Source: Dehalococcoidia bacterium (GTDB lineage Bacteria; Chloroflexota; Dehalococcoidia; Lucifugimonadales; UBA2985). Taken from it: a stretch of DNA of 48,316 nt. Shown here piece after piece: positions 1,529 through 45,823 of this stretch. The notes under the pieces were generated by a model. The model was not told where the DNA came from, did no database searches, and worked only from the letters and a program-made list of their open reading frames with translations. The number at the start of each line of letters is the position of its first letter. Within the stretch, counting starts at the first letter, position 1. The stretch spans positions 1 through 48,316 of the forward strand of contig JACVQK010000020.1 in NCBI GenBank assembly GCA_015661155.1, read 5' to 3'. The position numbers were made by a program, and so were the translations under genes.

Positions 1529-1674
1529 TAGAAGCTGTTCGGAAAACCCTCACCCCCTGTGTCCCCCTCTCCCTTGCCAAGGGAGAGGGGGAGGAAAAGG
1601 AATCTGGGGGACACCCCCAGACCCCCGCCAAAGGGGATCCGCCCCTCTGGACTCCCCTTTTCAGCACCCTGCTA
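1529..1674. repeat. MITE-like dispersed element copy 1 (about 146 bp)
   Basis: TA-bounded; right end in reverse complement is TAGCAGGGTGCTGAAAAGGGG, left end TAGAAGCTGTTCGGAAAACCC; internal TCTGGGGGTGTCCCCCAGA and CCCCCTCTCCCTTGCCAAGGGAGAGGGGG hairpins. Confidence 0.8.
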
Positions 1675-3222
1675 CGTCGCGGAGCCGGCTGCTTTGGACT
1701 CGGGCACTCCCTCAATGGCCATCAGCTTGTTCAGGGCGTTGATGTAAGCCTTGGCGCTGGCGACGAGGATGTCGGTGGAGGAGCCACGGCCGGTGTACAC
1801 CCTGCCCCCCTTCTGGATTCGGATGGTGACATCGCCTATGGCATCGGTGCCCTCGGTGATGGAGCCTATGGTGAACTCCTTGAGGGTGTTGGGCACCTGG
1901 ATGATGCGGTTGATGGCCACATACACGGCGTCCACGGGGCCGGTGCCGGTGGCAGCGTCGGTCAGGACGCGGCCCTGGGGATCGATGAGACGCACCGTGG
2001 CCGTGGGAATCTCGTGGTCGCCGCAGGAGACCTGGACATGCTCCAGGCGGTACATCTCCACCTGGGTCCGGCGACGGTCGCTCATGAGGGCCTCCAGGTC
2101 GCGATCGGTGACCTCCCGCTTCTTGTCCGCCAGCGCCTTGAAAGCCTCGAAGGCCTGGCTCATCTCCTCCGGCGTGAGCCGGTATCCCAGCTCCTCCAGC
2201 CTGGAACCGAGGCCGGCCCGTCCGCTCAGCTTGCCCAGCACCAGGGCGCTCGAGGGAATCCCTATGGAGTGGGGGTCCATGATCTCGAAGGTGGTGCGCT
2301 CCTTGAGGACGCCGTCCTGGTGAATGCCCGAGGCGTGGCGGAAGGCGTTCTGGCCCACAATGGCCTTGTTGGGCTGCACCGGAAAGCCGGTGATGTCGCT
2401 CACCAGGCGGCTGGTGCGGTAGAGCTGGGTGGTATCCACGCCCACGGCAACCCCGAAGAAGTCCCTCCGGGTAATTAGCCCCATGACCACCTCCTCCAGG
2501 GAGGCGTTTCCGGCCCTCTCGCCTATGCCGTTGATGCATCCCTCCACCTGCCTGGCTCCCACCCTGACGGCGGCGAGGCTGTTGGACACCGCGAGGCCCA
2601 GGTCGTTGTGGCAATGAACCGAGAGGACGGCACGGTCAATGTTGGGGACGTTCTCCTTGATGCCGACCAGCAGCCTGGCGAACTCCTCGGGGATGGCGTA
2701 GCCGACGGTGTCGGGGATGTTCACCGTGGTGGCCCCGGCTTTGATGGTGGCCTCCAGGAGGGCGTAAAGGTACTCGGGCTCAGTGCGAGTGGCGTCCATG
2801 GGGGAGAACTCCACGTCCTGGCAGTGCTTCTTGGCCCGCTCCACGGCGGCCACGGCCATGGCCATTATCTCCTCCCGGTTCTTGCGCAGCTGGTGCATGA
2901 TGTGGATGTCGGAGCTGGAGAGGAAGACGTGGATGCGGGGATGCCTCGCCTCTTTGAGCGCCTCGGCGGCGCGATCCACGGCATCGAGGGTAGCATGGGA
3001 CAGGGCGGCGATGATGGGGGCCCTCACCTCCCGAGCGATGGTCTGCACCGCCTGGAAGTCGCCCGGCGAGCTGGCGGGGAACCCCGCCTCGATGACGTCA
3101 ACCCGCAGGCGCTCCAGCTGGCGGGCGATCTCCAGTTTCTCCTCCAGGGCCATGGTGGCCCCGGCGGCCTGCTCGCCGTCCCGCAGCGTGGTGTCGAATA
3201 TGATGACCTTGTCTTCAGGCAT
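1672..3222 (-). CDS. leuA: 2-isopropylmalate synthase
   Basis: MPEDKVIIFDTTLRDGEQAAGATM, HCHNDLGLAVSNSLAA, GIGERAGNASLEE; SD AAAGGAG ahead of MPEDK; stop TAG lies in the repeat terminus. Confidence 0.95.
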   Translation of the reverse strand: MPEDKVIIFDTTLRDGEQAAGATMALEEKLEIARQLERLRVDVIEAGFPASSPGDFQAVQTIAREVRAPIIAALSHATLDAVDRAAEALKEARHPRIHVFLSSSDIHIMHQLRKNREEIMAMAVAAVERAKKHCQDVEFSPMDATRTEPEYLYALLEATIKAGATTVNIPDTVGYAIPEEFARLLVGIKENVPNIDRAVLSVHCHNDLGLAVSNSLAAVRVGARQVEGCINGIGERAGNASLEEVVMGLITRRDFFGVAVGVDTTQLYRTSRLVSDITGFPVQPNKAIVGQNAFRHASGIHQDGVLKERTTFEIMDPHSIGIPSSALVLGKLSGRAGLGSRLEELGYRLTPEEMSQAFEAFKALADKKREVTDRDLEALMSDRRRTQVEMYRLEHVQVSCGDHEIPTATVRLIDPQGRVLTDAATGTGPVDAVYVAINRIIQVPNTLKEFTIGSITEGTDAIGDVTIRIQKGGRVYTGRGSSTDILVASAKAYINALNKLMAIEGVPESKAAGSAT

Positions 3223-3480
3223 CTTGAAATCTCCTTTTGTCTCTTCCCAGAACGGCCAGGTCTTGGCTGCCGGCTCTGGGTAACCCTTGCACATTCAGCC
3301 CTATGATCGGCCACCGTTGGCTTTCATAGGGAAACGATGGAGGGGATATCTGGGAGAGACTAAAGGGCAACGCAGTCCGCCGGAACGACCCTTGCCAAGA
3401 GCCGTCCCTGATGGCGGACTACGTCTGTTACCTCTGGGGAGACCGTCTTGTTATCCATGAATGGAGCCATTGTATCAAAC

Positions 3481-3506
3481 TACGCCTGTTTCAGGAAGCC
3501 CATCAT
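3481..3506. repeat. 26-bp direct repeat, distal copy of the ilvC 3' end
   Basis: TACGCCTGTTTCAGGAAGCCCATCAT, identical to 4169..4194. Confidence 0.9.
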
Positions 3507-3519
3507 TGGTTTCACCCCC

Positions 3520-3582
3520 TCTCCAACTCTCCCCCTCGAGGGGGAGAGGGCTATCCCTTCCCCCTGCAAGGGGGAAGGGCAG
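3520..3582. repeat. two adjacent intergenic hairpins
   Basis: CTCTCCCCCTCGAGGGGGAGAG and CCTTCCCCCTGCAAGGGGGAAGG. Confidence 0.7.
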
Positions 3583-3664
3583 GATGGGGGTACAAGCGCA
3601 TGAGGCCGCCTCCGATGGATAATTGAAAGACCCTGATGAGGACTACAGAGACCCAAAGAAGCCT

Positions 3665-4147
3665 TCATCCACTTGGCCTGAAAAGCCACTCTCCTGCCCT
3701 CCCTGTAGCGCGTACTTCTGAGAAGCCCTTGGCCTTCAAGAATTCGCCGAGCAGCTTGTCGAATTGTGAAGGATTTAGAGCTAGTATACGCGTGAGTAAC
3801 TGCTGAGTTATATCCGGCTCGCCTATCTCTTTTGAAGGCTGGTAGGAGTCGTGCTTCGTGACATCCTTTGGGTTTGGCACGACGATCGGTGGTTCTCCTC
3901 GCGATTCTCGAAACTCATTTGCCTTTCGTACGTAACGTCTAATACTAGTCTGGCCACTTCTTGTGGCACCGTCAGGCCAACTTACTTCTATGAACTTCTT
4001 GAGAATGCCGGCTCCTGCGAAAAGTCCTACTGTTTCGCCTCTTCTGGCCACAGGTGTTATTGGTAAGTTCTGTATGGTATTAATCTCCTTCCGGAGGTCG
4101 TGGTTGTTTCCGAACTCGTAGGCCAATTTTAGGGGAAGTACTTTCAT
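3665..4147 (-). pseudogene. Mrr-like restriction endonuclease, apparently truncated at the start of the catalytic domain
   Basis: C-terminal LLTRILALNPSQFDKLLGEFLKAKGFSEVRATGRAG resembles the start of Mrr_cat, then ends before the expected GGID-type catalytic motif; more AT-rich than its flanks. Confidence 0.6.
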
Positions 4148-4167
4148 TTAAGCCACCCTCGTCTTTC

Positions 4168-5163
4168 TTACGCCTGTTTCAGGAAGCCCATCATGCCCCG
4201 GAGGGTCTTGCCCACCTCCTCGATGGGATGCTCCGCCTCCTGCTGGCGGAGGGCGTTGAAGCGGGGTCTGCCAGCCTTGTTCTCGGCGATCCACTCCCGG
4301 GCAAAGGAGCCGTTCTGTATCTCCTCCAGGATGCGCTTCATGTTCTGCCTCACGTGGTCGTCGATGACCCGGGGGCCGCGGCTGTAGTCGCCGTACTCGG
4401 CGGTGTCGCTTATTGAGTAGCGCATGTAGCCCAGGCCGCCCTGATAGATGAGGTCCACGATGAGCTTGAGCTCATGGCAGCATTCGAAGTAGGCCGATTC
4501 CGGCTGATAGCCCGCCTCCACCAGGGTCTCGAAACCCGCCTTTATGAGGGCCGTGACCCCTCCGCACAGCACGGTCTGCTCCCCGAAGAGGTCGGTCTCC
4601 GTCTCCTCCTTGAAGGTGGTATCCAGCACCCCGGCACGGGTGCAGCCGACGCCCCTGGCGTAGGCCAGGGCGTTCTCCCTGGCCTTGCCTGATGAGTCTT
4701 GGTGTATCGCCAGGAGGCCGGGAACCCCTGATCCCTGGACGAAAATCTCCCGCATCCGGTGTCCCGGGGCCTTGGGGGCCACCATGGACACGTCCACATC
4801 AGGCGGTGGCACGATCTGCTGGTAGTGGATGTTGAAGCCGTGGGCGAACATGAGGGTCTTGCCCCTCTTCATATACGGCTGGATGGAGTCGCGGTAGACC
4901 TGGGACTGGATGTGGTCCGGCACCAGCATCATGATGACGTCCGCCTGCTGGGCCACCTCCGCCACCGTAGCCACCCTCAGACCTGCCACCTCCGCCTTCG
5001 GCCAGCTTGCGCTGCCCTGGTACAGCCCCACCACTACGTTGACCCCGTTGTCCTTGAGGTTGAGGGCGTGGGCATGGCCCTGGCTGCCGTACCCGATGAT
5101 CCCGATGGTCTTACCCTTCAGCAGGGAGAGGTTTGCGTCCTTTTCGTAGTAGACATTGGCCAT
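4168..5163 (-). CDS. ilvC: ketol-acid reductoisomerase
   Basis: [59 protein letters not shown]. Confidence 0.95.
4169..4194. repeat. 26-bp direct repeat, proximal copy (ilvC C-terminal codons MMGFLKQA)
   Basis: Identical to 3481..3506. Confidence 0.9.
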
Positions 5164-5254
5164 GGCCAGTCGCCTCCTTTGTAGTGTTGCTAACAGGGGT
5201 ACAGTGTACACCGCCCATGGTGGGCCTGTCGAACCTCTCGTCGCAGCTTCCTCA

Positions 5255-5599
5255 TCAGTCCGCAGGGACAATCCCAAGGCCAATGGCGATGACAATCATG
5301 ACCAGCAGCAGCACAAGCCATGCAACGGTAGACGCCACCAATAGTGAAGCCTCGCGTATACGCTGCCTCAGGGCGAGTATGGCCGGGTAGCCGAGAACCA
5401 GGGCTCCACTGACGCACGCCGAGATGATGAAGAGCAGCAGAATGCCCACCGCCTGCATGGATGAATTCGTTTGCTCGTTCTCAGGGGGCAACCCAGCAAT
5501 ACGGTCGAGATTGTTTATGAAGAGCACGACCAGGATGACATAGAGAAAGACCCCCATGGCCTGGGCCAACCCCAGTAGAACGATCCTTTTTCTGCTCAT
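5255..5599 (-). CDS. hypothetical membrane protein
   Basis: Three hydrophobic segments; intact 114-aa ORF. Confidence 0.6.
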
Positions 5600-5840
5600 G
5601 TCTCTCCTTGATCACCCTCTGAGGTGTTGTCTATGCCAGGCAGGGCGATGAGACGACGGTGTTCCTTGGCTGAGATTGCCCACAGTCTACTCCCCATCGG
5701 TCTGGTCGTGCAACCAAAGCACATCAAAGGCCGAAGGACCAGGACTGTAGCAACCATCTTCTTGGAGACCACCTCATCTTGCGTCGGGAAGGCGTGCGAC
5801 GTATACTAGCGGCGCAACGGTGAACAGAAGGAGGAGCGCT

Positions 5841-8228
5841 ATGACCACGAATCCCCCCCTCGCCCTGAGTCAGTTCCGAGTCCTCGACCTTACCCAATCC
5901 CACGGCCAATACGCCTCCCGCCTGCTGGCTGACCTCGGGGCCGACGTCATCAAGGTGGAGCCGCCGGAGGGTGGCCCAGATCGCTGGGCGTGGCCTTTTG
6001 CAGGTGACGTCCCTGACAGGGAGCGCAGCCTCTCCTTCCTGCACTTCAACACCAACAAGCGCAGCGTCGTCCTGGACCTGACGACGGCCAATGGACGGAA
6101 AGCCTTCCTCAAGCTGGCCGCCGCCGCCGATGCCGTCGTGGAAGACCTTCCGCCTGGGTACCTGGCGAAGCTGCGGCTCGGCTACCACGACCTGCGAAAG
6201 GTCAACCCGGGTATCGTCATGACGTCTATCACACCCTTTGGGCAGAGCGGGCCTCGCTCCTACTATGAGGGAACCGACCTGGTGATCCAGGCCATGTCGG
6301 GCTGGATGACCACCGACGGTGATAATGAGTTCCCGCCGTGCGCCGCTCCCGGAGACCCGACGGTTCACCTTGCGGGAATGCACGGCGCCATGGGCACGCT
6401 CCTCGCGCTTTGGGCCCGTGGGGAGCACGGGCGTGGACAACACGTAGACACCTCGCTCTACGAGGTCATGGTGACGTCCCTCTCCTCCATGCCCATCTCT
6501 CGCTACTCGCTTTCCGGGGAGATCGTACGGCGGCCTGGGCGGCGGGTGAACACCGCAGCCGTCAACTACTATCCGTGTAAAGACGGCTATGTCGCCATGA
6601 ACATCCACTTCGACCACCTGTGGGAACGCCTCGTCAAGTGGGTCAATCACCCCGTCCTCAACGAGCCCTACTGGCTGGCACGGGGAGCCCGGCAGCAGAA
6701 TGCGGACCTCGTTGAGGAGATCCTCCAGGAGTTCAGCTCAAACATGACAGCGGAGGAGTTCTTGAAAGGTGCCCTGGCCCTGGGCCTCCCCGTTGCCAGG
6801 GTGAACACCTTCTCGGAGGCATTGGAGGTGCCCCAGCTCAAGGCCCGCCATTGGCTCCAGGAGGTCCACCACCCGGTCCTGGGGCGGATTTCCGTCCCAG
6901 GCCTCCCCTGGCTTCTGCGAGGAACCCCCCCTCGGGTGCGACGATCTGCCCCACTCCTTGGAGAGCATACCGAGGAGATCCTCCGCGAGGCAGCCGCCAC
7001 GGCGGTGCAGCGAGGAGCTTCGACGAACAGACCAAAGCAGGTTCCACCTCGGACGCCCCTGGAAGGCATCCGGGTGGTCGATCTCACGCGGGCTTTCGCC
7101 GGCCCCTTCGCCTCGCGGCTCCTGGCCGACTACGGGGCTGAGGTCATCAAGGTGGAGTCCGACCTCTTCGACACCCAACGAGAGGGCCGCGCCGGGACCT
7201 TCACGGAGCTGAATCGGAACAAGCTGAGCATTACCCTGGACCTCCACCATCCCGATGGGCAGGCCTTGCTCAAGAAGTTGGTGGCCGTCAGCGACGTGCT
7301 GATAGACAACTACAGGCCAGGCACGCTGGAGCGCTTCGGCCTGGCGTACGACGACCTGAAGGAGATCAACCCGCGGATCATCGTCGTGAGCATGCCAGCC
7401 TATGGGAGCACGGGGCCCGCCGCAGGGCACGCCGCCCATGGGACCCAGCTCATCGCCAACGCTGGGATTACCCATCTTTGGGGCCACCCCGAGTCGCCCA
7501 TGCAGGCACGATCGAAGTCAACGTACCCAGACCTCGTCGCTGGTGCCCAAGCAGCCCTGGCAACCCTGGCAGGGCTCCATGGGCGTAAGGGCACGGGAGC
7601 CGGGCAGTCCATTGAAGTGGCCCAGTCCGAGGTCCTCCTCAGCACCCTGGGCGTCGGACTCCTGGATTACCTGGTGAACGGGCGGGTATGGCAACCCACG
7701 GGTAACAGGCGCGCCTTCGCGGCCCCCCACGACCTCTACCCATGTCGCGGTCTCGACGCCCACTGTGCCATCGCCTGCGTGACGGAGGAGCAGTGGCGCT
7801 CCCTCTGCCAAGTCATGGCGCGCCCTGATCTCGCGGAGGACGCTCGTTTCGCCACCCTCCAGGATCGGGTGACAAACGTCGAGGAGCTGGACCAGATCAT
7901 CGCCACCTGGACGCGAGACCTCACCCCCTCCCAGGTTGCGTATCTGCTGCAAAGGGCGCGGGTCCCCGCCGGCGCCGTGCAGACAGGAGAGGATATCTAC
8001 TACGATTGGCATCTCAGAGAGCGCGGCTATGTGGCTCGCGTGGACGACCCTGAAACAGGGGACACGGAGATATCAGGGCTAACCGCTCACCTCTCCGAAA
8101 CGCCAGGGCGGCAGCAGATGCAAGGGCGACCGACCCTGGGTGGCGCCAATGACTACGTCTTCCACCAGATCCTCGGGCTGTCCCAGGAGGAGCGCCAGCG
8201 CCTGGAAGCCGAGAAGGCCATCGCCTGA
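5841..8228 (+). CDS. CaiB/BaiF (family III) CoA-transferase, two tandem domains fused
   Basis: Two copies of LDLT..(H/F)..YASRLLADLGADVIKVE / VDLTRAFAGPFASRLLADYGAEVIKVE; SD AAGGAGGAGCGCT before MTTNPP. Confidence 0.9.
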   Translation: MTTNPPLALSQFRVLDLTQSHGQYASRLLADLGADVIKVEPPEGGPDRWAWPFAGDVPDRERSLSFLHFNTNKRSVVLDLTTANGRKAFLKLAAAADAVVEDLPPGYLAKLRLGYHDLRKVNPGIVMTSITPFGQSGPRSYYEGTDLVIQAMSGWMTTDGDNEFPPCAAPGDPTVHLAGMHGAMGTLLALWARGEHGRGQHVDTSLYEVMVTSLSSMPISRYSLSGEIVRRPGRRVNTAAVNYYPCKDGYVAMNIHFDHLWERLVKWVNHPVLNEPYWLARGARQQNADLVEEILQEFSSNMTAEEFLKGALALGLPVARVNTFSEALEVPQLKARHWLQEVHHPVLGRISVPGLPWLLRGTPPRVRRSAPLLGEHTEEILREAAATAVQRGASTNRPKQVPPRTPLEGIRVVDLTRAFAGPFASRLLADYGAEVIKVESDLFDTQREGRAGTFTELNRNKLSITLDLHHPDGQALLKKLVAVSDVLIDNYRPGTLERFGLAYDDLKEINPRIIVVSMPAYGSTGPAAGHAAHGTQLIANAGITHLWGHPESPMQARSKSTYPDLVAGAQAALATLAGLHGRKGTGAGQSIEVAQSEVLLSTLGVGLLDYLVNGRVWQPTGNRRAFAAPHDLYPCRGLDAHCAIACVTEEQWRSLCQVMARPDLAEDARFATLQDRVTNVEELDQIIATWTRDLTPSQVAYLLQRARVPAGAVQTGEDIYYDWHLRERGYVARVDDPETGDTEISGLTAHLSETPGRQQMQGRPTLGGANDYVFHQILGLSQEERQRLEAEKAIA

Positions 8229-8515
8229 GTTTCACCCCGTCAATGGCTATCCCGTGAGCGCGCAGAGAGGGCCTTCCCGCAACAGAGGACCCAACGGCTT
8301 GCTGGGTGGCCCTTTGGATAGCTGAGGAGGAGAACCAGGCCGACCCGAACGCCGTGGGCAGAGCGATGCTCATCAAGGTGTACGGGAGGACGGTGAGCGG
8401 GTGGTGTTGAACCGCTCTCCCTTCCCAAACACCTCGTCTTACATCTCGCGGCCCATTCCTCAGAGGCGTGCCCTCTTGCCAGCGACCCATCCTCCCACTG
8501 ACAAGCCGGCAGCAA

Positions 8516-8557
8516 AAGGCCCCTCCCCGGCGGACGAACCGCAGAGCGAGGGGCCTT
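8516..8557. terminator. Rho-independent-type hairpin between convergent genes
   Basis: AAGGCCCCTC...GAGGGGCCTT with flanking A-rich and T-rich tracts. Confidence 0.7.
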
Positions 8558-8577
8558 CTTCTATCGCTGATGCCGGG

Positions 8578-10266
8578 CTATTTGGCCAGCCACGTCCTCT
8601 CGAAGACGGAGAGGGTCATCATCGCAGGGGTCGCTTTCAAGACGTATCCCTTCAGATTCGGTGTGGTGCCATTGAAGATCAGTATCCACCCCAGGGAGAG
8701 CTCGTTCAGCATCTCCTGGGTCAGCTTCTTGTCTATGGCCCGGACCATCTCTGCACGCTTCACCTGGTTCATCTCGCCGATCTCCCCCTCCATCATCGCC
8801 TGTATCTCCGTCTGCAAGGCGGGCTCGGCCGCCGTCATTCCCTCCAACATGCATTTGTTGCTGGAGCTCAGTGGATAGAGCCAGCTGTATCTGACGAGCC
8901 GGTCATCCGGGTCCCCGTCCGAGGCTTGCAGATTGACCCCCTGTACATTGAAGTTGCACGCATCTATGTAGGTCGTTTGCACCGGAATCTCAAGGGGCTG
9001 CATGGTTATCTCGATGCCCAGCTTCTTCTTCACCTGGTCCTTGAAGAAGAGACAGTAGTTCATGAAGTTCTGGGTATTCCTCGATATGCAGGTGGTGTCG
9101 AACCGCTTCCCCTTCCCGAACACCTCGTCCAGCAGCCGGTTCGCCTCCACGACGTCCTGGTCCTTGGGCTGCCGGTAGCCAGGCCACGTCTTCAACTCCT
9201 CCTCCGGAGTGCCCCACCAGAAGGAAGGATAAGGCCCGTTGTAGCCCGTCAGCAACGCCCCAGAGCGACTCCCGTACATCTGGAACAGCTGCCAGTCGTT
9301 CCGGTCCAGGGCCAGGTGAAAAGCCTGCCTCACCCGACGGTCATTGAAGGGGGCCCGGTTCAAGTTGAACCTTATTCCCGAGCCCCAGTTGTGCAAGCCC
9401 ATGTGGACCACTATCCGGTCAGGGAAGTCCCGCTCCGCTTGCGCCACCTGCCCGGGCAGCAGAGCGGAGCTGGCACCGCCCAGCCAGTGGATCTGTCCTG
9501 TGGCCAGGGCCGTGAACCGGGTTGTGAAATCCTTGAGGATGTACGACTCGATGCCGTCCAGCAGGGGCAGTCCCTCCCGGAAGTAGGTGGGGTTCCGCCG
9601 GCTCTTTGTTACGATGTCTGTCTGGAACTCCTCGGGCACAAATGCCCCCGTGCCTGCATGAAACTTGAAGCTCGCGGGTGTTGCCAACCCCATCTCATCG
9701 AAGTGGTTGGCAACGTACCAGTCTATCCACCCCTTGTCCAGCATGGGCATAAGGAAGAATACCCCCAGGGTCCTGGCCAGCACCTGGTTCAGGTTTATCA
9801 CCGCGGTATACCCCTTGGCTCCATCGGGGCAGGAGACGCCGGTGACGTGCTGCAGAGTGGCTCTCGGGACGCGCTTCGGCTCCGGCGGGCGCACATCGTA
9901 CTCAACGTCCTCCAGCTTGAAGGTCAGGCTCAGGCCGTCGCTGGAGAACTCCCAGCTCTTGGCCAGGTCACCGATTAGTGAGTTCGTCGCTGCCCACGGG
10001 TCATACCGTACCAGGGCGTTGTAGAGAGGGGGAACCATGGTTTCGTTTCCGGAGCTAGTAGTAATCGGCCGATGGGCGGTTAGGGGGTTCGGAATCCCCG
10101 TCTTCATTGTCCCGCCCCGCTTGGGCTCTCCCCACGCCGGATCGTACCCCGGGAGCTGGGTGAGGGTGGCGGCAGACTGCCTGGGCGTGGCCGTGGGCGC
10201 TGCCGTGGCCGTGACGGTGGGCACCGTGATCGCGAGTATCGGCCTCACCTTCAGCAGATAGCCCAC
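8578..10266 (-). CDS. ABC transporter substrate-binding protein, SBP_bac_5 (oligopeptide type)
   Basis: GLHNWGSGIRFNLNRAPFNDRRVRQAFHLALDRNDW motif; GTG start with SD GGAGGTGAGAAC. Confidence 0.75.
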   Translation of the reverse strand: MGYLLKVRPILAITVPTVTATAAPTATPRQSAATLTQLPGYDPAWGEPKRGGTMKTGIPNPLTAHRPITTSSGNETMVPPLYNALVRYDPWAATNSLIGDLAKSWEFSSDGLSLTFKLEDVEYDVRPPEPKRVPRATLQHVTGVSCPDGAKGYTAVINLNQVLARTLGVFFLMPMLDKGWIDWYVANHFDEMGLATPASFKFHAGTGAFVPEEFQTDIVTKSRRNPTYFREGLPLLDGIESYILKDFTTRFTALATGQIHWLGGASSALLPGQVAQAERDFPDRIVVHMGLHNWGSGIRFNLNRAPFNDRRVRQAFHLALDRNDWQLFQMYGSRSGALLTGYNGPYPSFWWGTPEEELKTWPGYRQPKDQDVVEANRLLDEVFGKGKRFDTTCISRNTQNFMNYCLFFKDQVKKKLGIEITMQPLEIPVQTTYIDACNFNVQGVNLQASDGDPDDRLVRYSWLYPLSSSNKCMLEGMTAAEPALQTEIQAMMEGEIGEMNQVKRAEMVRAIDKKLTQEMLNELSLGWILIFNGTTPNLKGYVLKATPAMMTLSVFERTWLAK

Positions 10267-10824
10267 GTTCTCACCTCCCTGATGGATTTACGGAAAGGGT
10301 AGCATGGCACCTGGCGACTGTCAATGCATCCGATGGCATAGAGTAGGTGTCACCGAGGGGGGTGTCGTTGCCTCAGAACCCATGCTACCGGGACGTGACA
10401 TAACACAAGGCAGCGTGGAGGAGCAGGCAGTATGACCACATCCCACCCCGCTGCCCGACTTCTTCAGGCCCTTCCGACGAGGCTCCTCATCACCCGTACC
10501 TGGAGATACGGCCTTGACCAGGCAAGCTCAACCCAGAATCCCCACTCCGGTCAGTCCAGTCAGGCATGGTCCGACCGGGTGAGAAGAGCATACCCTCGCC
10601 TCAGAAGGCTGGTCAACCAACGTTTCCATGGCCCGTACCGCTATTGACTGTGCTAGAATCCAGAGACCACCCGTAGGTATGAGGCGAGGCCACCCAGTGA
10701 GTTCGAGAGGCGTTTTCCTGCGTTCCCTCCCCTGTTTCGCAGGGCTGAGGGATGAAGAGACCCAGCGACGGGAGAGGGAGTCGCTGGAGCGCTCTTTCGA
10801 CAAGGGCGGGACCCTTTTCCTGCC

Positions 10825-12032: not shown

Positions 12033-12035
12033 CCA

Positions 12036-12278: not shown

Positions 12279-12281
12279 AGC

Positions 12282-13358: not shown

Positions 13359-13384
13359 GGAAGCGCCCAGATGTATCGGGATTG

Positions 13385-13499
13385 CCTGGAGTCTGAGGGA
13401 CACCCTCAGACTGGGCTAAGCCCAGGCCCACACCGGGCGAACTGTAGAATATGGTCAGACCCAATGCAACACCCTCCAAATCTGGGTGCAGGGCACGCC
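13385..13499. repeat. dispersed element, diverged module-2 copy
   Basis: GAGTCTGAGGGACACCCTCAGACTGGGCTAAGCCCAGGCCCACACC..GAACTGTAGAATATGGTCAGACC..GGGTGCAGGGCACGCC. Confidence 0.7.
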
Positions 13500-13600
13500 A
13501 TGCATGCTTTATATCTCTGGGATTATTCTTGTGGTAAACTTGAAACATCTGGTAAGACGTGTGAACCTGAGCAACAGGTCGCAGCCAGGGGGCTAGAGCC

Positions 13601-27395: not shown

Positions 27396-27543
27396 AATCG
27401 CTCCCTGCCAGTGCTCGCGACGCTCAGATGATGCCACGTGTATGCTGTGTTCGTATACTGACTTCGCCAGGGCCCAGGTCGCCGATGTCCATACCAAGTC
27501 CGGGCGCACCGGCCAATGGGGGATGGCGTGATTGGTCTTACCG

Positions 27544-28452
27544 ATGAGATTTCATGAGCTGTACACGACTGGACACCCAGCCATCTCCTTCGAGATAGTT
27601 CCCCCCAGAACGGCAACGACTCTAGCAGGGATGGAAGAGCGATTGCCGCAGCTCATCGCCCTGTGCCCATCCTTGATAACGGTGACTTACGGAGCGATGG
27701 GCGGCACGCGGGAGCATACTCTGGAGACCGCTTCCAGGATACAGAACGAGTACGGGATGGAGACTGCCCACCACCTGACCTGTGTAGGATTCAGCCGCGA
27801 TGAAATCAATCTCGTACTGGAGGATATCCGAAACCACAACATCTCGAACATCGTGGCCCTTCGAGGAGACCCTCCACAAGGGGAGACGGGGTTTACGTGG
27901 CCCAGGGATGGTTACAGCCACGGCAATCAGCTGGTAGAGCATATCAGCCGCTTTGGCGGATTCGGCATCGCCGTGGCGGGCCACCCGGAAAAGCACCTCG
28001 AAGCCCCCGATTCCAAGACGGACCTGCAAAACCTGAAACGCAAGGTGGATAGTGGTGCTGACGCGGTCATTACCCAGCTATTCTTCGACAACCGCATCTT
28101 CTATGACTTCGTAGAGCGGTGCCGTGCCATAGGCATCCATCAGCCCATCATCCCCGGACTTCTGCCAATCCTGGGCATGGAGCAGATCAAGCGCATCACC
28201 GGCATGTGCGGTGCGACCATTCCTGATGAGCTCTTTCGTCAGCTACAGAAGGCAGGGGACGACGAGGAACGGGTACATGAAATCGGCATAACGCACACAG
28301 CAAACCAGGCCCTGGACTTGTTGCGCCAGGGGGTCAAGGGCATTCACTTCTACGTGCCGAACCCACACTTCCCCATGGGCGAAATCATGGAGCGCATAAA
28401 GCCAGCACTATCCGGGAGCGAAGGGGTGGTGGTGGCAGAGGGGTTGGGGTAG
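27544..28452 (+). CDS. metF: methylenetetrahydrofolate reductase
   Basis: ISFEIVPPRT, HLTCVGFSRDEI, LRGDPP, ITQLFFDN, PIIPGLLPI. Confidence 0.9.
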   Translation: MRFHELYTTGHPAISFEIVPPRTATTLAGMEERLPQLIALCPSLITVTYGAMGGTREHTLETASRIQNEYGMETAHHLTCVGFSRDEINLVLEDIRNHNISNIVALRGDPPQGETGFTWPRDGYSHGNQLVEHISRFGGFGIAVAGHPEKHLEAPDSKTDLQNLKRKVDSGADAVITQLFFDNRIFYDFVERCRAIGIHQPIIPGLLPILGMEQIKRITGMCGATIPDELFRQLQKAGDDEERVHEIGITHTANQALDLLRQGVKGIHFYVPNPHFPMGEIMERIKPALSGSEGVVVAEGLG

Positions 28453-28648
28453 AGCGCGAGCTGAGGTGAGCGGTAAGGAGGAGTCCAGAGGGGCTACGCC
28501 CCTTTGCTGGGGGTCTGGGGGTGTCCCCCCAGACTGGGCTGAGCCCAGACCCACACCTCACGAACCGTAGAACATGGTCAGACCAGGGCAGCGACAGTTG
28601 ATTGCGGGTGCAGGGGGATGGTCGAAAGGGTTTTTCAGCACCCTGCTA
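28450..28648. repeat. MITE-like dispersed element, long form, between convergent metF and TSUP
   Basis: Right terminus (rc) TAGCAGGGTGCTGAAAAACCC; left terminus degenerate TAGAGCGCGAGCTGA; both hairpin modules present. Confidence 0.7.
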
Positions 28649-30780: not shown

Positions 30781-30801
30781 GGGCAGGGCGTGCCCTGCAT
30801 G

Positions 30802-30948
30802 TATAGGCTGATGAAAAGGGAGATGTGCAGAGGGGCGTAGCCCCTTTGCCGGGGGTTTGGGGGTGTCCCCCAGATTCAAATTCCTCCCCCTTCCTGGCCA
30901 GGAAGGGGGACAGGGGGATGGTCGAAAGGGTTCTTCATCAGCCTGCTA
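30802..30948. repeat. MITE-like dispersed element, short form (about 147 bp)
   Basis: Left TATAGGCTGATGAAAAGGGAG; right (rc) TAGCAGGCTGATGAAGAACCC; CCCCCTTCCTGGCCAGGAAGGGGG palindrome. Confidence 0.85.
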
Positions 30949-34512: not shown

Positions 34513-34584
34513 TGCGGCTCCTCTCGAACTTCAGCGGATTCCTCTCGAGGAGGAAGAGGAAGGGCCGGCGATGGGGACGGCATC

Positions 34585-34809: not shown

Positions 34810-34936
34810 GAAAAGCCCACCCTACCCTTTGGAGTCCTCGCGGGACGCCAAAAGACCTTTCGCCCGTACATCCTTAGTGGTACATTATACCCTGGGGAAG
34901 GGCAATTGAAAACGCATTTCCACCCCAGGAAAATCC

Positions 34937-35977: not shown

Positions 35978-35985
35978 CAGAAGGT

Positions 35986-37242: not shown

Positions 37243-37392
37243 CCCGCCGCAATCTTGAAGAGGCGTTGCTAAACGAGCCGCCACGCGGGGGGCTATAGCG
37301 GATTCGAGCCTGGCATTTGACATAATGTAGCATAGAATAAATGCTGAAAGCCGCACGGCGGGATATTCTCCCCCTGACCTTCAGCTTTCCCC

Positions 37393-37611
37393 TAGGAGGG
37401 TGTTGAAGAACCCTCTTCGACCATCCCCCTGCCCCCTTCCTGTCCAGGCAGGGCACGCCCTGCACCCACACTCTTCAGAGGTATTTATGGGCAGGTTGAA
37501 GACAGGGTCCGTGAGATGTGGGTCTGGGCTAAGCCCAGTCTGGGGGACACCCCCAGACCCCCGTCAAAGGGGCTTCGCCCCTCTGCACTCCCCTTTTTCA
37601 CCAGCCTGCTA
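37393..37611. repeat. MITE-like dispersed element, long form (219 bp)
   Basis: Left TAGGAGGGTGTTGAAGAACCC; right (rc) TAGCAGGCTGGTGAAAAAGGGG; CTGGGCTAAGCCCAG, GCAGGGCACGCCCTGC hairpins. Confidence 0.9.
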
Positions 37612-38718
37612 GCCGTAGGTGATCTCGTTGTAGCAGGCCACGCTGTGGCCGGGCTCTATCTCCCGCAGAGGGGGCTGGGGGCTGAGTCGGCAGACGTTGG
37701 TGGCTTTGGGGCACCGGGGCAGAAAGGGGCATAGGTCGGGGAGATCGATGGGGTCCGGGGTTGTGCCGCGTATGGAGCGGAGGGAGCGCTTCGGCTCGTC
37801 CAGCCGGGGGATGGTCTGCAACAGGGCCCAGGTGTAGGGATGATAGGGGCGCTGGAACAGGCTTGGCGTATCGGCATACTCTACCACCATGCCGGCGTAC
37901 ATGACGGCCACCTCCTTCGCCACCTGAGCGATGACCCCCATGTTATGGGTAATGATGATCATGGTGGAGTGCTTTTCGGCCCGTATCCGCTTGAGCCTGG
38001 CCAGTACGTCCGCCTGAATGGTCATGTCCAGGTTAGAGGTGGGCTCATCGGCGATGAGGACTTTTGGCTGCCAGGCCGTGGCCATGGCTATCATGGCCCG
38101 CTGGGCCATGCCGCCGCTAAGCTGGTGAGGGTATTGCTTGAAGATCGGCTCAGGCAGCTCCAACTCCCTCAGCAGGTCCATCGTCCGTGCCCTGGCTTCC
38201 ACATGGGACATGGTGCCAGAGGCTAAGCGGGGAGAGGAGAGAATCCCCTCTGTCTCTGCCAGTTCCCTGGCATCCCTGATGGACATGAGGCTGTGGGCCA
38301 AGAGGATCTCCATAATCTGGTCGCCGATGGTTTCGATAGGGTTGAGGGAGCCTCTGGCATCCTGGAATATCATGGCTATGTCCTTGCCCCGTACCCTCAG
38401 CAGCTCCTCATCGCCTATCTTCAGGAGGTCCCTGCCCTGGAAGTACACCCCACCCTCGACAGTCCTCCCTGGATGGGGAACCAAACGCAGCAGGGAGAGG
38501 GCCATCACCGACTTTCCCGCGCCGCTCTCGCCCACAACCCCCAGAACGCTATCCTCTTTCACAGAGAGACTCACCCCGTTGACCGCCTTCACCACACCCT
38601 CTCGGGTGTAGAAGTAGGTGTGAAGGTTCTCTATCCGGAGGACATCCGGCTTTTCCTCAGTCTTCACAGTGTTGTACTCATCTCTTTTTATCTTCACATC
38701 CTGCCACCGCGAAGTCAA
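37609..38718 (-). CDS. oligopeptide ABC transporter ATP-binding protein (OppD/DppD type)
   Basis: GESGAGKS Walker A, LSGGMAQR signature, DEPTSNLD, C-terminal CPFLPRCPKA motif. Confidence 0.9.
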   Translation of the reverse strand: MTSRWQDVKIKRDEYNTVKTEEKPDVLRIENLHTYFYTREGVVKAVNGVSLSVKEDSVLGVVGESGAGKSVMALSLLRLVPHPGRTVEGGVYFQGRDLLKIGDEELLRVRGKDIAMIFQDARGSLNPIETIGDQIMEILLAHSLMSIRDARELAETEGILSSPRLASGTMSHVEARARTMDLLRELELPEPIFKQYPHQLSGGMAQRAMIAMATAWQPKVLIADEPTSNLDMTIQADVLARLKRIRAEKHSTMIIITHNMGVIAQVAKEVAVMYAGMVVEYADTPSLFQRPYHPYTWALLQTIPRLDEPKRSLRSIRGTTPDPIDLPDLCPFLPRCPKATNVCRLSPQPPLREIEPGHSVACYNEITYG

Positions 38719-38773
38719 GGCGTGGGGTGGAATATCCCCACCATGCGGCTTTCAGGATAGATTCTGGCCTATA

Positions 38774-38840
38774 GTTATGTCAAATATGTGGAGGGTTATG
38801 TAAACTACCGATGTGGGGCTTTTTCGTAATATTACATAAC
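38774..38840. promoter_or_regulatory. AT-rich region with repeated GTTATGT half-sites upstream of the oppD-like gene
   Basis: GTTATGT at 38774 and 38795 (21 bp apart); GTTATGTAA 38795 inverted with TTACATAAC 38832. Confidence 0.4.
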
Positions 38841-38875
38841 ATGTATAGGGCGAATATACTAGCCGCTTTTCCACC

Positions 38876-39217
38876 TCACGACAGGGGCATGTAGCCCATT
38901 CCCTCGTTCCGCTCCTCTATGCCTCCCCTGTACACAAACTGTCCATGGGGTGTGGTCTTCCTGGCGCTTCCCTCGGAGAAGTCGAGGCGCACCGTTCCGC
39001 CATCGCACTCCACCGTCACCTCGTTGCCATGCCAGCTCAACACCCGCCGGGGACGGGTGTCTATGATATTGGCCTGCCCTACCTTGAAGCTCATCCACGG
39101 CTTGATGGAGCCCCCGCGCAGGGCGTCCTTTGCCTCCTGTGAATCCACGATGGTAAACTCCTGGGGAGTGCAACTGAAAAAAGGCCGGTGGGGCAGGTCC
39201 TGGTTCTCCAGGGTCAT
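38876..39217 (-). CDS. hypothetical protein, translationally coupled to hflX
   Basis: ATG overlaps hflX stop (ATGA); intact 113-aa ORF. Confidence 0.65.
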
Positions 39218-40467
39218 GGGCGCTCCTTTCTCGGGTCTTGGGGGTTTATCCAGAATCCCAGATCACGCTGGGGTTCCCTCAGATGCTCCAGCATCTCTCC
39301 GATGGCCGTGAGCAGGTGGTCCAGGCCCCATCCCTTGGCCGCGGATATGAGGACAGGGTATCCCTCTCCCCATCCTGATTTCAGCTCCTCGCCGTACCCC
39401 TCTTCCTGGTGGTCACCCGGCAGGAGGTCTATCTTGTTCAGGGCTAGAACACGGGGCTTGTCCTCCAGGTGGAGCTCGGCCAGCAACCTGTTCACGACCT
39501 GGACCTGCCCCTCAGCGTTTTGATGAGTTATGTCAATTACATGAAGGATTCCGTCGGCCTCCGCCAGCTCCTCCAGGGTCGCCCTGAAGGCGGCCACCAC
39601 GGTTGGGGGCAGCTTCTGGATGAATCCCACGGTATCGGTGAGAAGAAAGGAGCCCTTCTCTGGAAGTTCCACCTTCCTGGTGACGGGGTCCAGGGTGGAG
39701 AACAGCTTGTCCTCTGCCACCACATCCGCATCGCTGAGGGCGTTGAGAAGGGTGCTCTTTCCGGCGTTGGTGTATCCCACCAGGGCCACGATGGGTGTCC
39801 CCAGGCGCTTGCGGCGTTCACGGTAGAGGGCGCGATGCTGGCGCACCTCCTCTAGCTCTCGCTTGAGCCTCTGAATCTTGTTTCGGATGATGCGGCGGTC
39901 CGTTTCAAGCTGGGTCTCGCCAGGGCCCCGGGTGCCTATACCACCTCCCAGGCGCTCCAGATGGGCCCACTGGCCCACCAGCCGGGGCAGAAGGTACTCG
40001 TGCTGGGCCAGCTCCACCTGCAACCGCCCTTCGTGGGTCTGGGCTCGCCGGGCGAAGACGTCCAGGATGAGGGCGGTGCGGTCAATGACCTTTACCTTCA
40101 GGGTCTCCTCCAGGTTTCGCTGCTGCTTGGGGCTCAGCTCGTCATCGAATATGACCACATCAGCTTGCAGGTCGTCCCGCATGACCAGGACCTCTTCCAG
40201 CTTTCCCTTTCCCATGTAGGAGTTGGTGGGCCTCTCCAGTCGCTGGGTGAGGGTGCCAACCACCTGGGCACCTGCCGTGCGGGCCAGTTGCCCCAGCTCC
40301 TCCAGGGAGTCCTCCAGGGACCACAGACGGGGCTTGCCCCTGGTCTCCACTCCCACCAGGATAGCCCTTTCAGGGCGGGCTTTCGTGGATGCTGTGGTCT
40401 TGGGCGTAGCGGGGTACCTCCTTGGACTACCAGTCTTAGCAGGGTGCTGAAAAATCCTGTCGACCAT
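39214..40467 (-). CDS. hflX: ribosome-associated GTPase HflX
   Basis: [48 protein letters not shown]; start apparently inside the repeat ([13 protein letters not shown]...). Confidence 0.9.
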
Positions 40468-40584
40468 CCCCCTAGCCCCCTTCCTGGCCAGGAAGGGGGC
40501 TGAAATTATATCTGGGGGCCACCCCCAGACCCCCGTCAAAGGGGCTTCGCCCCTCTGCACTCCCCATTTTCCAGCAGCCTGTTA
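40437..40584. repeat. MITE-like dispersed element, short form (148 bp), overlaps hflX start and dapL stop
   Basis: Left TAGCAGGGTGCTGAAAAATCC; right (rc) TAACAGGCTGCTGGAAAATGGGG. Confidence 0.9.
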
Positions 40585-41754
40585 GGTTGGATCGGGGATG
40601 TGCCAGGATGCCAGGCGTGCCAGTCCCCTCTCCATCTGGTCGTCGGCGATGGTGAGGGACAGGCGGATGTACCCCTCGCCGTGCCTGCCGTAGCCGGCTC
40701 CGGGAGTGACCACGATACTCTTCTCCTCCAGCAGCAGCGTGGCGAACTCTCCCGACTTCCACCCCTGGGGCAGCTTGGCCCAGACATAGAGGCTGGCCCT
40801 GGGAACAGCCACCTCCAGCCCTATCCCTCGCAGGGTCGCCACCACCCTGTCCCTGCGCCGCTGGTAGATTCGGTTGTGCTCCTCAATGCACTCCTGGGGG
40901 CCTCGAAGGGCCTCTATGGCGGCGTACTGGATGGCCTGGGGTATGCCAGAGTCCAGGTTGGACTTGACCCTCATGAGGGCGTTGACCATCTGGGCGTTGC
41001 CTACCGCCATGCCGATGCGCCATCCCGTCATGTTGTAGCTCTTGGAGAGGGAGTGGAACTCCATTCCCACCTCTTTGGCCCCGGGCGTCTGGAGGAAGCT
41101 CCCTGGCCTGTATCCGTCGTAGGCCACCTCGGTGTACGGGGCATCGTGGAGCACTGGGACGCCGTACCGCCGGGCGAACTCCACCACCTTCTGGAAGAAT
41201 CCCTCGTCGGCCACTGCCCCTGTGGGGTTGTTGGGGTAGTTGAGCCACAGGGCCCTGGCCCTTCGCGCCACCTCCGGTGGGATGGCATCCAGGTCCGGGA
41301 GCCATCCGTTCTCCTCCAGGAGGGGCATCCAGTGGCACTGGCCCCCGGCGAAGAGGGTTCCTACGGAGTAGACGGGATAGCCGGGGTCTGGGACCAGGGC
41401 AATATCCCCGGGGTCGATGAAGCAGAGGGCGGCGTGGCCGATGCCCTCCTTGGCCCCTATGAGGGGCAGCACCTCCCTGTCCGGGTCCAGGGTCACCCCA
41501 AAGCGGCCCTCATACCAGTCGGCGATAGCCCGTCGCAGCTCCGGGAGGCCCTCGGTCTCCGGGTAGCGGTGATTAGGAGGGTCATTGCTTGCCTGGTGCA
41601 GGCGCTCCAGGATGTGGGAGGGGGTGGGGATGTCGGGGTCGCCGATGGCGAAGGTGACCACATCGGCACCCTCGGCCCGTTTACGGGCTATCTTGCGGCT
41701 GATCTCCACGAACAGGTAAGGCGGGAGCTGCTCTATGCGATTAGCGAATTTCAT
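40582..41754 (-). CDS. dapL: LL-diaminopimelate aminotransferase
   Basis: Aminotransferase I/II fold; FAIGDPDIPTPSHI, LNYPNNPTGAV, SLSKSYNMTGWRIG; near dapF. Confidence 0.8.
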   Translation of the reverse strand: MKFANRIEQLPPYLFVEISRKIARKRAEGADVVTFAIGDPDIPTPSHILERLHQASNDPPNHRYPETEGLPELRRAIADWYEGRFGVTLDPDREVLPLIGAKEGIGHAALCFIDPGDIALVPDPGYPVYSVGTLFAGGQCHWMPLLEENGWLPDLDAIPPEVARRARALWLNYPNNPTGAVADEGFFQKVVEFARRYGVPVLHDAPYTEVAYDGYRPGSFLQTPGAKEVGMEFHSLSKSYNMTGWRIGMAVGNAQMVNALMRVKSNLDSGIPQAIQYAAIEALRGPQECIEEHNRIYQRRRDRVVATLRGIGLEVAVPRASLYVWAKLPQGWKSGEFATLLLEEKSIVVTPGAGYGRHGEGYIRLSLTIADDQMERGLARLASWHIPDPT

Positions 41755-42080
41755 CGTCTGTGCTGCTCCTTACCGTGAATCTTCGGTGTCATGAAAATCT
41801 CCCGCATGACCTCCACCACCCTCTCCCGGATCTGCCCTTCCCAGAACATCGCCATCAACGGTAAGTTCGCCTCCAACTTCACGTCCTTTTCCCCCACGAC
41901 CAGCCAGCCTGAAACGACAGCTCCCCTTGCCCTGAAGGAGAAGGTCAACCGGTTCTCCTTCCACTCCTGCCGGACATCAGTTACCTCCGAACCAAAGCGG
42001 GCTATCAGCGTGGAGCTGTGGGTCTTCAACTCCTCCTGGGCTAGGGCACTGGTGGTCCCGTGGGGAAAGACAACCTTCAT
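41751..42080 (-). CDS. PHA granule-region type (PHA_gran_rgn-like) small protein
   Basis: FSFRARGAVVSGWLVVGEKDVKLEANLPLMAMFWEGQIRERV. Confidence 0.55.
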   Translation of the reverse strand: MKVVFPHGTTSALAQEELKTHSSTLIARFGSEVTDVRQEWKENRLTFSFRARGAVVSGWLVVGEKDVKLEANLPLMAMFWEGQIRERVVEVMREIFMTPKIHGKEQHRR

Positions 42081-42104
42081 GAACTCCTCACCGTCATATC
42101 CCTT

Positions 42105-42953
42105 TCACCCATTCCACTCGCCCTCGAAGACCTCCTCCGCGGGGCCTTCCAGGTACACCTGCCCCCGGCCGTCCCAGGCGACGGTGAGGACGCCCCCAGG
42201 CAGAGTTATGTCAACTTCGTCGTCGGTGTAGTCGTGCAGCCGGGAGGCCACGGCGATGGCGCAAGACCCCGTGCCGCAGGCCAACGTCTCCCCCACCCCC
42301 CGCTCCCATACCCGCGCCGAGAGATGGCCCGGGTCTCCCACATTGACGATGGAGAAATTGACCTGATTGGGAAACAGAAGGTGGTGCTCCACCAGAGGCC
42401 CGATCAAGGGCAGGGGGAACTCCCCCACCGGCGCGTCCAGGAAGGCCACGGCATGGGGGTTGCCCATCCCAACGAAGGTCAGCCTCAGCTCCACGCCCTC
42501 GACCGTCAGGGGGTAGTCCAGCGCCGGCTCGTCGGAAGCGCCCCCTGGAAGGGCCACGGGAACCCTGTCAGGACGCAGCTCCGGCTTACCCATAGCCACC
42601 CGGGCCCGGATGACCCTGCCGTCGTGCCAAATGGGAACCAGGGCACGCACTCCCGCCAGGGTCTCCACCTCAAGGGGGCTCTCGCCGCGTCTTACGATTC
42701 CCCGCTCCAGGACGTACTTGGCCAGGCAGCGAATGCCGTTGCCGCACATCTCCGCCTCGGAGCCGTCGGGGTTGAACATGCGCATTCGCGTATGGGCCGA
42801 GCTGGAGGGTAGCACCAGGAGGATGCCGTCGGCTCCCACTCCCAGGCGGCGGTGGCACATGGCCCTGGCCAGGGAAGGCCAGTCGGCGTCGAGGTCCCGA
42901 GCGTCTATGAGGGCGTAATCGTTGCCCGCACCGTGCATCTTGGTGAACTTCAC
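42105..42953 (-). CDS. dapF: diaminopimelate epimerase
   Basis: VKFTKMHGAGNDYALIDARD (GTG start, SD GGAGGAG), EMCGNGIRC, ERGVGETLACGTGSCA. Confidence 0.93.
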   Translation of the reverse strand: MKFTKMHGAGNDYALIDARDLDADWPSLARAMCHRRLGVGADGILLVLPSSSAHTRMRMFNPDGSEAEMCGNGIRCLAKYVLERGIVRRGESPLEVETLAGVRALVPIWHDGRVIRARVAMGKPELRPDRVPVALPGGASDEPALDYPLTVEGVELRLTFVGMGNPHAVAFLDAPVGEFPLPLIGPLVEHHLLFPNQVNFSIVNVGDPGHLSARVWERGVGETLACGTGSCAIAVASRLHDYTDDEVDITLPGGVLTVAWDGRGQVYLEGPAEEVFEGEWNG

Positions 42954-42965
42954 CGAGTCTCCTCC

Positions 42966-43113
42966 TAACAGGGTGTTAAAAACTCCTTCGACCATCCCCC
43001 TGGCCCCCTTCCTGGCCAGGAAGGGGGGAGAATTTGAATCTGGGGGACACCCCCAGACCCCCGCCAGAAGGGGCTTTGCCCCCTCTGGACTCCCCTTTTC
43101 CCGCATCCAGCTA
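42966..43113. repeat. MITE-like dispersed element, short form (148 bp)
   Basis: Left TAACAGGGTGTTAAAAACTCC; right (rc) TAGCTGGATGCGGGAAAAGGGG. Confidence 0.85.
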
Positions 43114-43143
43114 GATTTTACCATAGTCCGCTCTGGCCCGCTC

Positions 43144-43240
43144 ACTGGGCTTAGCCCAGACCCACACCTCACTAACCGTAAAACATGGTCAGACTAAGGC
43201 AGTCCCGACGTGTCGGGATTGAGTGTGGGTGCAGAGCTCT
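43144..43240. repeat. solo module-2 copy
   Basis: ACTGGGCTTAGCCCAGACCCACACCTCACTAACCGTAAAACATGGTCAGAC...GAGTGTGGGTGCAG. Confidence 0.75.
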
Positions 43241-43333
43241 CCCTGCCTAGAGGTGTTCCATCTCCCTGGGCGGTGTGCTAGGATGTTCTCTGGAGGGCCG
43301 AAGGCAAAGAAGGAGCACCCGCAGGAGAAATCA

Positions 43334-44599
43334 TTGAAGGTCATGGTGGTAGGCAACGGAGCCCGGGAGCACGCCCTCGCCTGGAAGATAAGGCAGAGCC
43401 GCGATGTGAGCGATCTGTACGTGGCCCCTGGGAACGCCGGAACCTCGGCCATGGCCACCAACCTCCCTGTATCCGCCACGGACCTGGAGGGCTTGGCCCA
43501 GGCAGCTCTCCATCATGGGGTAGACTTCACCGTTGTGGGGCCTGAGACGCCCCTGGCCGCGGGCATCGTGGACTGCTTTCAGGAGAGAGGGCTGGCCATC
43601 TTTGGCCCCACCAGGAAGGCAGCCCGCATCGAGGGCAGCAAGGTCTTTGCCAAGGAGCTGATGGTGCGGCACGGCATCCCCACAGGACGTGCCGAGGTGT
43701 TCGACTCCTATGACAAGGCTTGTAGTTATGTCAAGGCGCAACCCCTTCCCATAGTGGTGAAGGCGGACGGTCTGGCCGCGGGGAAAGGGGTGACGGTAGC
43801 GAAGAGCGTGGAGCAGGCTGTGAGGGCGCTAAAGGAGTGCATGGTGGAGCGGGTGTTTGGCCCCGCGGGAGATCGGGTGCTGGTGGAGGAGTGCCTCGTC
43901 GGGAGAGAGGTGAGCGTGTTCGTCTTCACCGACGGGGAGAGCATGTCGCCCATGGTAGCGGCCTGCGACTACAAGCGTGCCCATGACGGCGATGAGGGGC
44001 CAAACACGGGAGGCATGGGCAGCTACAGCCCGCCGGAGTTCTGGAGCGCAGCTCTGGAACGGGAGATTCAGGAGAGGATCATGAGGCCAACGGTGCGCGC
44101 CCTCGCCCAGCAGGGATGCCCTTTCAAGGGCATCCTCTACGGCGGCATCATGTTGACGGAGAATGGCCCCCAGGTGGTGGAGTTCAACTGCCGTCTGGGA
44201 GACCCGGAGACCCAGGTCATCCTGCCGCGCCTCTCCTCGGACCTGGTGGAGATACTCCTGGCCGTGACTGAGGGCAGGCTTAACAAAACGCCAATAGAGT
44301 GGAGCGCAGAGGCCTGCGTGGGCGTTGTGATGGCCTCTGGGGGCTATCCCGGCAGCTATGAGACCGGTTTCCCGATAGCTGGACTCCCACAGGCAGAGAG
44401 GCGCGGGCTTGTGTTTCACGGCGGCACAAGGGTCGCGAGGGAAGGAGCGCCTGGGGTGCTATCCGATGGTGGCCGGGTGCTGACGGTGGTGGGAAAGGGG
44501 CAAAGTCTGCGGCAAGCCAGGGCCCAGGCGTACGAAGGGGTTGCTCAAGTCCACTTTGAGGGCGGCTTCTACCGCAAGGACATCGCCGCCGGTATCTAA
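43334..44599 (+). CDS. purD: phosphoribosylamine-glycine ligase
   Basis: VMVVGNGAREHALAWK, VGPETPLAAGIVD, EFNCRLGDPETQV. Confidence 0.95.
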   Translation: MKVMVVGNGAREHALAWKIRQSRDVSDLYVAPGNAGTSAMATNLPVSATDLEGLAQAALHHGVDFTVVGPETPLAAGIVDCFQERGLAIFGPTRKAARIEGSKVFAKELMVRHGIPTGRAEVFDSYDKACSYVKAQPLPIVVKADGLAAGKGVTVAKSVEQAVRALKECMVERVFGPAGDRVLVEECLVGREVSVFVFTDGESMSPMVAACDYKRAHDGDEGPNTGGMGSYSPPEFWSAALEREIQERIMRPTVRALAQQGCPFKGILYGGIMLTENGPQVVEFNCRLGDPETQVILPRLSSDLVEILLAVTEGRLNKTPIEWSAEACVGVVMASGGYPGSYETGFPIAGLPQAERRGLVFHGGTRVAREGAPGVLSDGGRVLTVVGKGQSLRQARAQAYEGVAQVHFEGGFYRKDIAAGI

Positions 44600-44640
44600 A
44601 CCCGCTAATGTCTCGTCATGCAAAGAGAACAACACATGAG

Positions 44641-44784
44641 GGTGCAGGGGGCGAAGCCCCCGCCGGGGGTCTGGGGGTGTCCCCCACTGGGCCATGGCCC
44701 AGACCCACACCTTACGAACCGTAGAATATGGTCAGACCAGGGCAGCGACAGTTAAGTGTGGGTGCAGGGCGTGCCCTGCACCCA
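44641..44784. repeat. dispersed element copy (core plus module 2, no clear left terminus)
   Basis: GGGGGTCTGGGGGTGTCCCCC; GAACCGTAGAATATGGTCAGACCAGGGCAGCGACAGTT; GGGTGCAGGGCGTGCCCTGCACCC. Confidence 0.8.
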
Positions 44785-44801
44785 CTCCTGCAGGAGGCAC
44801 C

Positions 44802-45659
44802 ATGAGGCTGGGAGCCCACGTTTCCACCGCCGGGGGCCTGGATAAAGCCATCGACAGAGCTCAAGGGATAGGCGCTGAGACCATCCAGGTCTTCGTATCC
44901 TCTCCCCAGGGATGGGCCTTCAAACCCATACCGTCAGGAGTAGCAGCGGCCTTTCGAGAGAAGGCCGCTGCCGCGGACATAGGCCTCACCTTCCTTCACG
45001 GCATATACCTGATTAACCTGGGCAGCCCCAACCAGGAGGGCCTGGACAAGTCCGTTCAGGCCCTCATCAGTTCCATGCAGGCGGCGGGGGAGATCGGGGC
45101 TGCCGGAGTCATCTTCCACGCCGGTAGCCACCGGGGAGCCGGTTTCCAGGGCGTCTTCGACCAGGTGGTGAGGGCCATGGAGCAGGTGCTAGAGACATCT
45201 CCGGAGGGCGTCTGGCTCATCATCGAGAACAGCGCCGGCATGGGGCAGCACATCGGCTCCAGCTTCCAGGAGATAGGCCAGATGACCAAGGCCCTGGCCT
45301 CTCCCCGGGTGAAGGTGTGCCTGGACACCCAGCACTCTTTCGCCGCGGGGTATAACGTGGTCGAGGAGGATGGCTTAAATCGGGCCCTGGAGGAGTTTGA
45401 TAGGGAGATAGGGCTACTCAACCTGGTGGCCGTCCACGCCAACGACAGCAAGGTGCCCTTCGCCTCCGGGGTGGACCGCCACGAGAATATCGGCCAGGGC
45501 CACATGGGCCTAGAGGGATTTCGCTGTATCATGAGGCATTCCGCCTTCAGGGATGTCCCCTTCCTGCTGGAGGTGCCGGGGGTCGAGGGCAAAGGGCCGG
45601 ATAAGGCCAACCTGGACATCCTCAAGGGACTGCGTGAAGAGGTGGGTGCAGAGAGCTAG
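44802..45659 (+). CDS. nfo: endonuclease IV
   Basis: MRLGAHVSTAGGLDKAIDRA, HGIYLINLGSP, CLDTQHSFAAGY, HANDSKVPFASGVDRHENIGQGHMG. Confidence 0.93.
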   Translation: MRLGAHVSTAGGLDKAIDRAQGIGAETIQVFVSSPQGWAFKPIPSGVAAAFREKAAAADIGLTFLHGIYLINLGSPNQEGLDKSVQALISSMQAAGEIGAAGVIFHAGSHRGAGFQGVFDQVVRAMEQVLETSPEGVWLIIENSAGMGQHIGSSFQEIGQMTKALASPRVKVCLDTQHSFAAGYNVVEEDGLNRALEEFDREIGLLNLVAVHANDSKVPFASGVDRHENIGQGHMGLEGFRCIMRHSAFRDVPFLLEVPGVEGKGPDKANLDILKGLREEVGAES

Positions 45660-45823
45660 CAGTCTGTTGGAAAAGGGGAGTGCAGAGGGGCGCAGCCCTT
45701 TGACGGGGGTCTGGGGGTGTCCCCCAGACTGGGCTTAGCCCAGACCCACATCCCACAGACCCTGAGTTCGGCTTGCCTATGAATGCCTCTGAGGAGTGTG
45801 GGTGCAGGGCTCGCCCTGCTGGA
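45657..45823. repeat. MITE-like dispersed element, long form lacking a clear right terminus
   Basis: Left TAGCAGTCTGTTGGAAAAGGGGAG; core and module 2 present. Confidence 0.8.

Follow-up and report, generated by a model that had tools for sequence, protein, structure and literature searches.

A YTAR-flanked MITE family in an uncultured Chloroflexota lineage, probably moved by an IS5-family transposase

Correia elements, ERIC and RUP are short palindromic intergenic repeats, several of which carry terminal inverted repeats (TIRs); for Correia and RUP, TA duplications have been reported. A short non-coding MITE with TIRs matching IS5-family elements is known as BrickBuilt in Porphyromonas gingivalis (PMC4596501), and YTAR is the duplication motif of IS5 (PMC10359306). 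The repeats considered here are likewise short, non-coding and TIR-bounded. They come from a 1.81-Mb draft MAG related to Dehalococcoidia (101 contigs, 93% complete), from which a sample of 1.01 Mb was analysed, consisting of the window (the whole stretch of 48,316 nucleotides under study, contig C62) and 80 other stretches of the same genome.

In this sample, the terminal motif occurs 239 times when up to three mismatches are allowed, compared with 6 occurrences in a base-composition shuffle. The consensus, made from 48 copies with a mean pairwise identity of 87%, is 148 bp long, 142 bp of which lie between the target duplications, and has inverted-repeat ends; the element proper begins CAGG(G/C)TGNTGAAAA, and the corresponding profile returns 79 full-length matches, in line with the dispersed family described in the initial annotation. 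The duplication is a 4-bp YTAR, mostly CTAG, TTAG or CTAA. Besides the 148-bp form, longer, shorter and mosaic forms are present. Elements of 81 bp with the same TIRs, found at two loci of the genome (L091 from 7173 and L108 from 6186), are a shorter deletion form of the family. The initial annotation did not recognise the repeats as a described family, and no description was found in the literature searched; an Rfam search of the window matched no known RNA family, and a search for carriage of the element by phages or viruses gave no match.

The repeats most probably constitute a MITE family that is moved in trans by an IS5-family (DUF772 plus DDE) transposase, a reading to which we assign a probability of roughly 0.9 on the basis of sequence comparison. 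That they are dispersed, non-autonomous MITEs, as originally proposed, follows from the TIRs, the target duplications, the copy number, the empty sites in relatives and the existence of a same-ended, transposase-bearing partner. In the presumed mechanism, an IS5-family transposase would recognise the ends CAGG(G/C)TGNTGAAAA and insert the element into YTAR, thereby duplicating these 4 bases; a transposase of this type is probably what moves the MITE, and copies would persist mainly where insertion does no harm, namely between genes and at stop codons, the latter with coding sequence and stop intact. Against the IS5-type reading, no partner transposase was detected in the genome itself, and current mobility is unproven.

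Within the window, a repeat search recovers all nine originally noted segments as related sequence, and the hairpins quoted for them are present; the segments are, however, a mixture of full MITEs, long or mosaic MITEs and copies of a second repeat, B. The best full copy with 4-bp duplications lies at 40436..40585 (+ strand), with TTAG at 40436-40439 and 40582-40585, and its right border forms the TAA stop of an aminotransferase gene (40582-41754, - strand). The copies at 1529..1674 (-) and 30801..30948 (-), the latter with one decayed end, both have a border on a TAG stop: at 1672-1674 for leuA (1672-3294, - strand) and at 30946-30948 for a YchF-type GTPase gene. A long form with both TIRs and a B repeat inside (37393..37611, +) has its border at 37609-37611, where an ABC-transporter ATPase gene ends in TAG. 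The segment 42966-43240 had been taken for one copy; a full-length MITE occupies 42966..43113 (+), but the remainder is a B repeat behind it (~43137-43246). Two further segments have only one clear TIR each: (i) a long or mosaic form at 28450..28648 (-), with a TIR at 28632-28648, hairpins and a B repeat, has its other border on the TAG that terminates an MTHFR-type gene (27532-28452, + strand), and (ii) in a mosaic form at 45657..45823 (-), the single TIR lies where a xylose isomerase-like TIM-barrel gene (44694-45659, + strand) ends in TAG, and the far end is a B repeat. Two segments counted as MITE copies, 13385-13499 and 44641-44784, lack the TIRs and are mainly repeat B: the former is a B repeat (13385..13505, +), and the latter (44641..44784, +) consists of a B repeat and adjoining MITE-like hairpins.

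Repeat B is about 90-110 bp long and has the layout CTGGGCTTAGCCCAG-ACCCACACC ... GTGTGGGTGCAGGGC-NN-GCCCTGC. It forms a hairpin at each end beside an inverted ACCCACAC motif, yields about 80 matches in the 1.01 Mb and occurs alone or fused with MITE halves, also inside or adjoining long MITE forms. In the window, it occupies 13385-13505, 28526-28615, 37443-37546, 43137-43246, 44680-44784 and 45721-45819. Where the right end of B can be recognised (72 copies), recognisable TIRs flank it on both sides in 12, on one side in 27 and on neither side in 33.

At six copies in the window, the end coincides exactly with the stop codon of a Pfam-matched gene (LeuA, MTHFR, YchF, the ABC ATPase, the aminotransferase and the TIM barrel). 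In the 1.01-Mb sample, 48 of the 239 termini lie at offset 0 from the stop of the inbound gene, neighbouring offsets holding at most 4, and in other genomes the stop triplet closes an open frame of at least 200 codons at 17/84 termini, compared with 3 in the two control frames together. The leuA stop, moreover, has been hit independently in two families: G017, a member of another family, carries a separate copy there with CTAA on both sides. Active targeting of stop codons or gene 3' ends, beyond a preference for YTAR, thus seemed a striking explanation at first, but a null model in which usable YTAR sites were weighted by their use, together with a gene model built for this analysis, fits the data: in gaps of up to 150 bp it places 52% of copies at stops, and 22/40 (55%) were observed (p = 0.44). 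The excess at stops in gaps of up to 600 bp (p = 0.02) may stem from genes missed by the gene model, and such targeting is unlikely. The pattern is instead read as target choice plus purifying selection. Since the duplication holds the whole YTAR, an element inserted at Y-TAG or Y-TAA does not alter the coding sequence. The most frequent stop codon of the genome, whose G+C content is about 60%, is TAG (263/534 confident genes), and it remains so when genes that end at a recognisable MITE are left out.

The elements might also have been retained because their hairpins serve as transcription terminators or stabilise mRNA 3' ends. Copies often sit right behind a stop codon, and the copy at 40437-40584 folds far better than shuffled sequences on both strands (z -6.0 and -4.6 as RNA; as DNA, z is -4.3). 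On the other hand, no terminator-like site was found in the copies between 28300 and 46000, convergent gaps show no clear excess of copies (10/65 vs 95/757), and presence in relatives is patchy; such a role is therefore quite improbable. The alignment of copies yields only a small common structure; 9 copies carry a double change from G-C to A-T at one of its pairs, which is too little to indicate selection on structure. A regulatory role is possible but unsupported. It would be a long shot that selection retains the hairpin-rich MITE at stop codons because it works as a portable 3'-end module, acting on mRNA stability or transcript ending; in that case, genes across the order would gain standard 3' ends by transposition.

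The target duplication and the partner bear on the original assignment to TA-targeting elements of the IS630/Tc1-mariner group. TA is present at the borders and the flanks prefer CTAG, which IS630 favours too. The bases outside TA nevertheless agree between the two borders: for copies of the genome itself with TA at both borders, agreement exceeds that of shuffles at each outer position (p about 0.002 each), and in a second, independent set, 52 copies taken from other genomes, it amounts to 32/41 and 34/41, compared with about 20 and 22 expected, a level reached in 0/5000 shuffles. Because this agreement recurs in two sets, the duplication comprises 4 bp, not TA alone; TA is the middle of YTAR, and a 2-bp TA duplication as in IS630/Tc1-type MITEs does not describe these elements. 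The suggested IS630/Tc1-like partner is not supported: the IS elements with the same TIRs belong to the IS5 family. In related genomes, IS elements of 1.33-1.37 kb have CAGG(G/C)TG(C/T)TGAAAA or close variants at both ends and are bordered by CTAG or another YTAR. Such MITE-type ends were found at seven loci (L142, L143, L144, L149, L150, L151 and L158) in a search for DUF772 transposases across 197 genomes of the order. Against the NCBIfam model NF033581 (IS5; cut-off 140), the L143 and L158 transposases score 251 and 267 bits, and the former also has matches to Pfam DUF772 and DDE_Tnp_1. One genome, G116, holds ten transposase-domain copies of equal score. MITE and IS have only the terminal 14-18 bases in common. 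Loci obtained in MITE-bearing genomes by a DDE_Tnp_1 search were rejected as partners, none having the MITE TIR at both ends. In the genome itself, no DDE_3 (IS630-type, PF13358) transposase was found, which led to rejection of an IS630 partner and, with the 4-bp duplication and the IS5-type ends, renders membership in the IS630/Tc1-mariner group very improbable. Neither DDE_Tnp_1 nor the L143 transposase has a match in this 93% complete draft; DUF772 has one, on contig C12. The MITE may be stranded in its own genome, or its transposase may be one that is gained and lost over time; mobile MITEs in genomes lacking a functional transposase have been noted earlier (PMC3119063).

The element occurs, patchily, in 17 of 40 relatives, and copies in other families of the order reach 93% identity to the consensus; in a scan with the core pattern, the named genomes among the matches listed are Chloroflexota MAGs, several of them labelled Dehalococcoidia or Dehalococcoidales. 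Filled and empty sites, the latter anticipated by the initial annotation, were found at two gene pairs, where gene order is conserved and the comparison is with same-family relatives of other genera, in which the exact pre-insertion bases are not preserved. Between leuA and aconitase, the site of the copy at 1529-1674, the element is absent in G001-G004; between the aminotransferase and the next gene, the site of the copy at 40436-40585, it is absent in G001, G003 and G004, the gap in G004 being long for other reasons. Copy positions common across genera were not seen at these two pairs. A comparison of filled and empty sites within genus g33 gave no information, its alignment being interrupted in the intergenic stretches. 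In g33 genomes, a short palindromic repeat, about 28 bases long (L117, about 2349-2386, also in G061 and G087), recurs at many places with matches on both strands, in positions unrelated to the MITE. Although the repeats are palindromic, intergenic and of high copy number, vertical inheritance of ERIC- or REP-like repeats without transposition has next to no probability in view of the target duplications, the sites lacking the element in relatives, the independent insertion at the leuA stop, the patchy distribution and the partner IS with the same ends.

With this IS5-type MITE family, an uncultured Chloroflexota lineage gains a defined MITE family with an identified type of IS partner, and it becomes apparent why a YTAR-targeting element often lands exactly on stop codons and leaves the gene unharmed; knowledge of the family aids gene calling and assembly of these repeat-rich genomes. 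The kind of element and its wider biology are already known. Closest to it are the IS5-family IS elements (NF033581; DUF772 plus DDE_Tnp_1) of the same order, which have identical or near-identical ends and YTAR borders; the MITE differs by the lack of a transposase gene, an unrelated inner sequence and its size of 142 bp, compared with about 1.33-1.37 kb. BrickBuilt resides in another host phylum, has another TIR, contains a minisatellite and shows variable reported duplications, in contrast to the consistent YTAR of the present MITE. Compared by description only, Correia, ERIC and RUP are also short, palindromic and intergenic, and the present family is set apart from Correia and RUP by its YTAR duplication.
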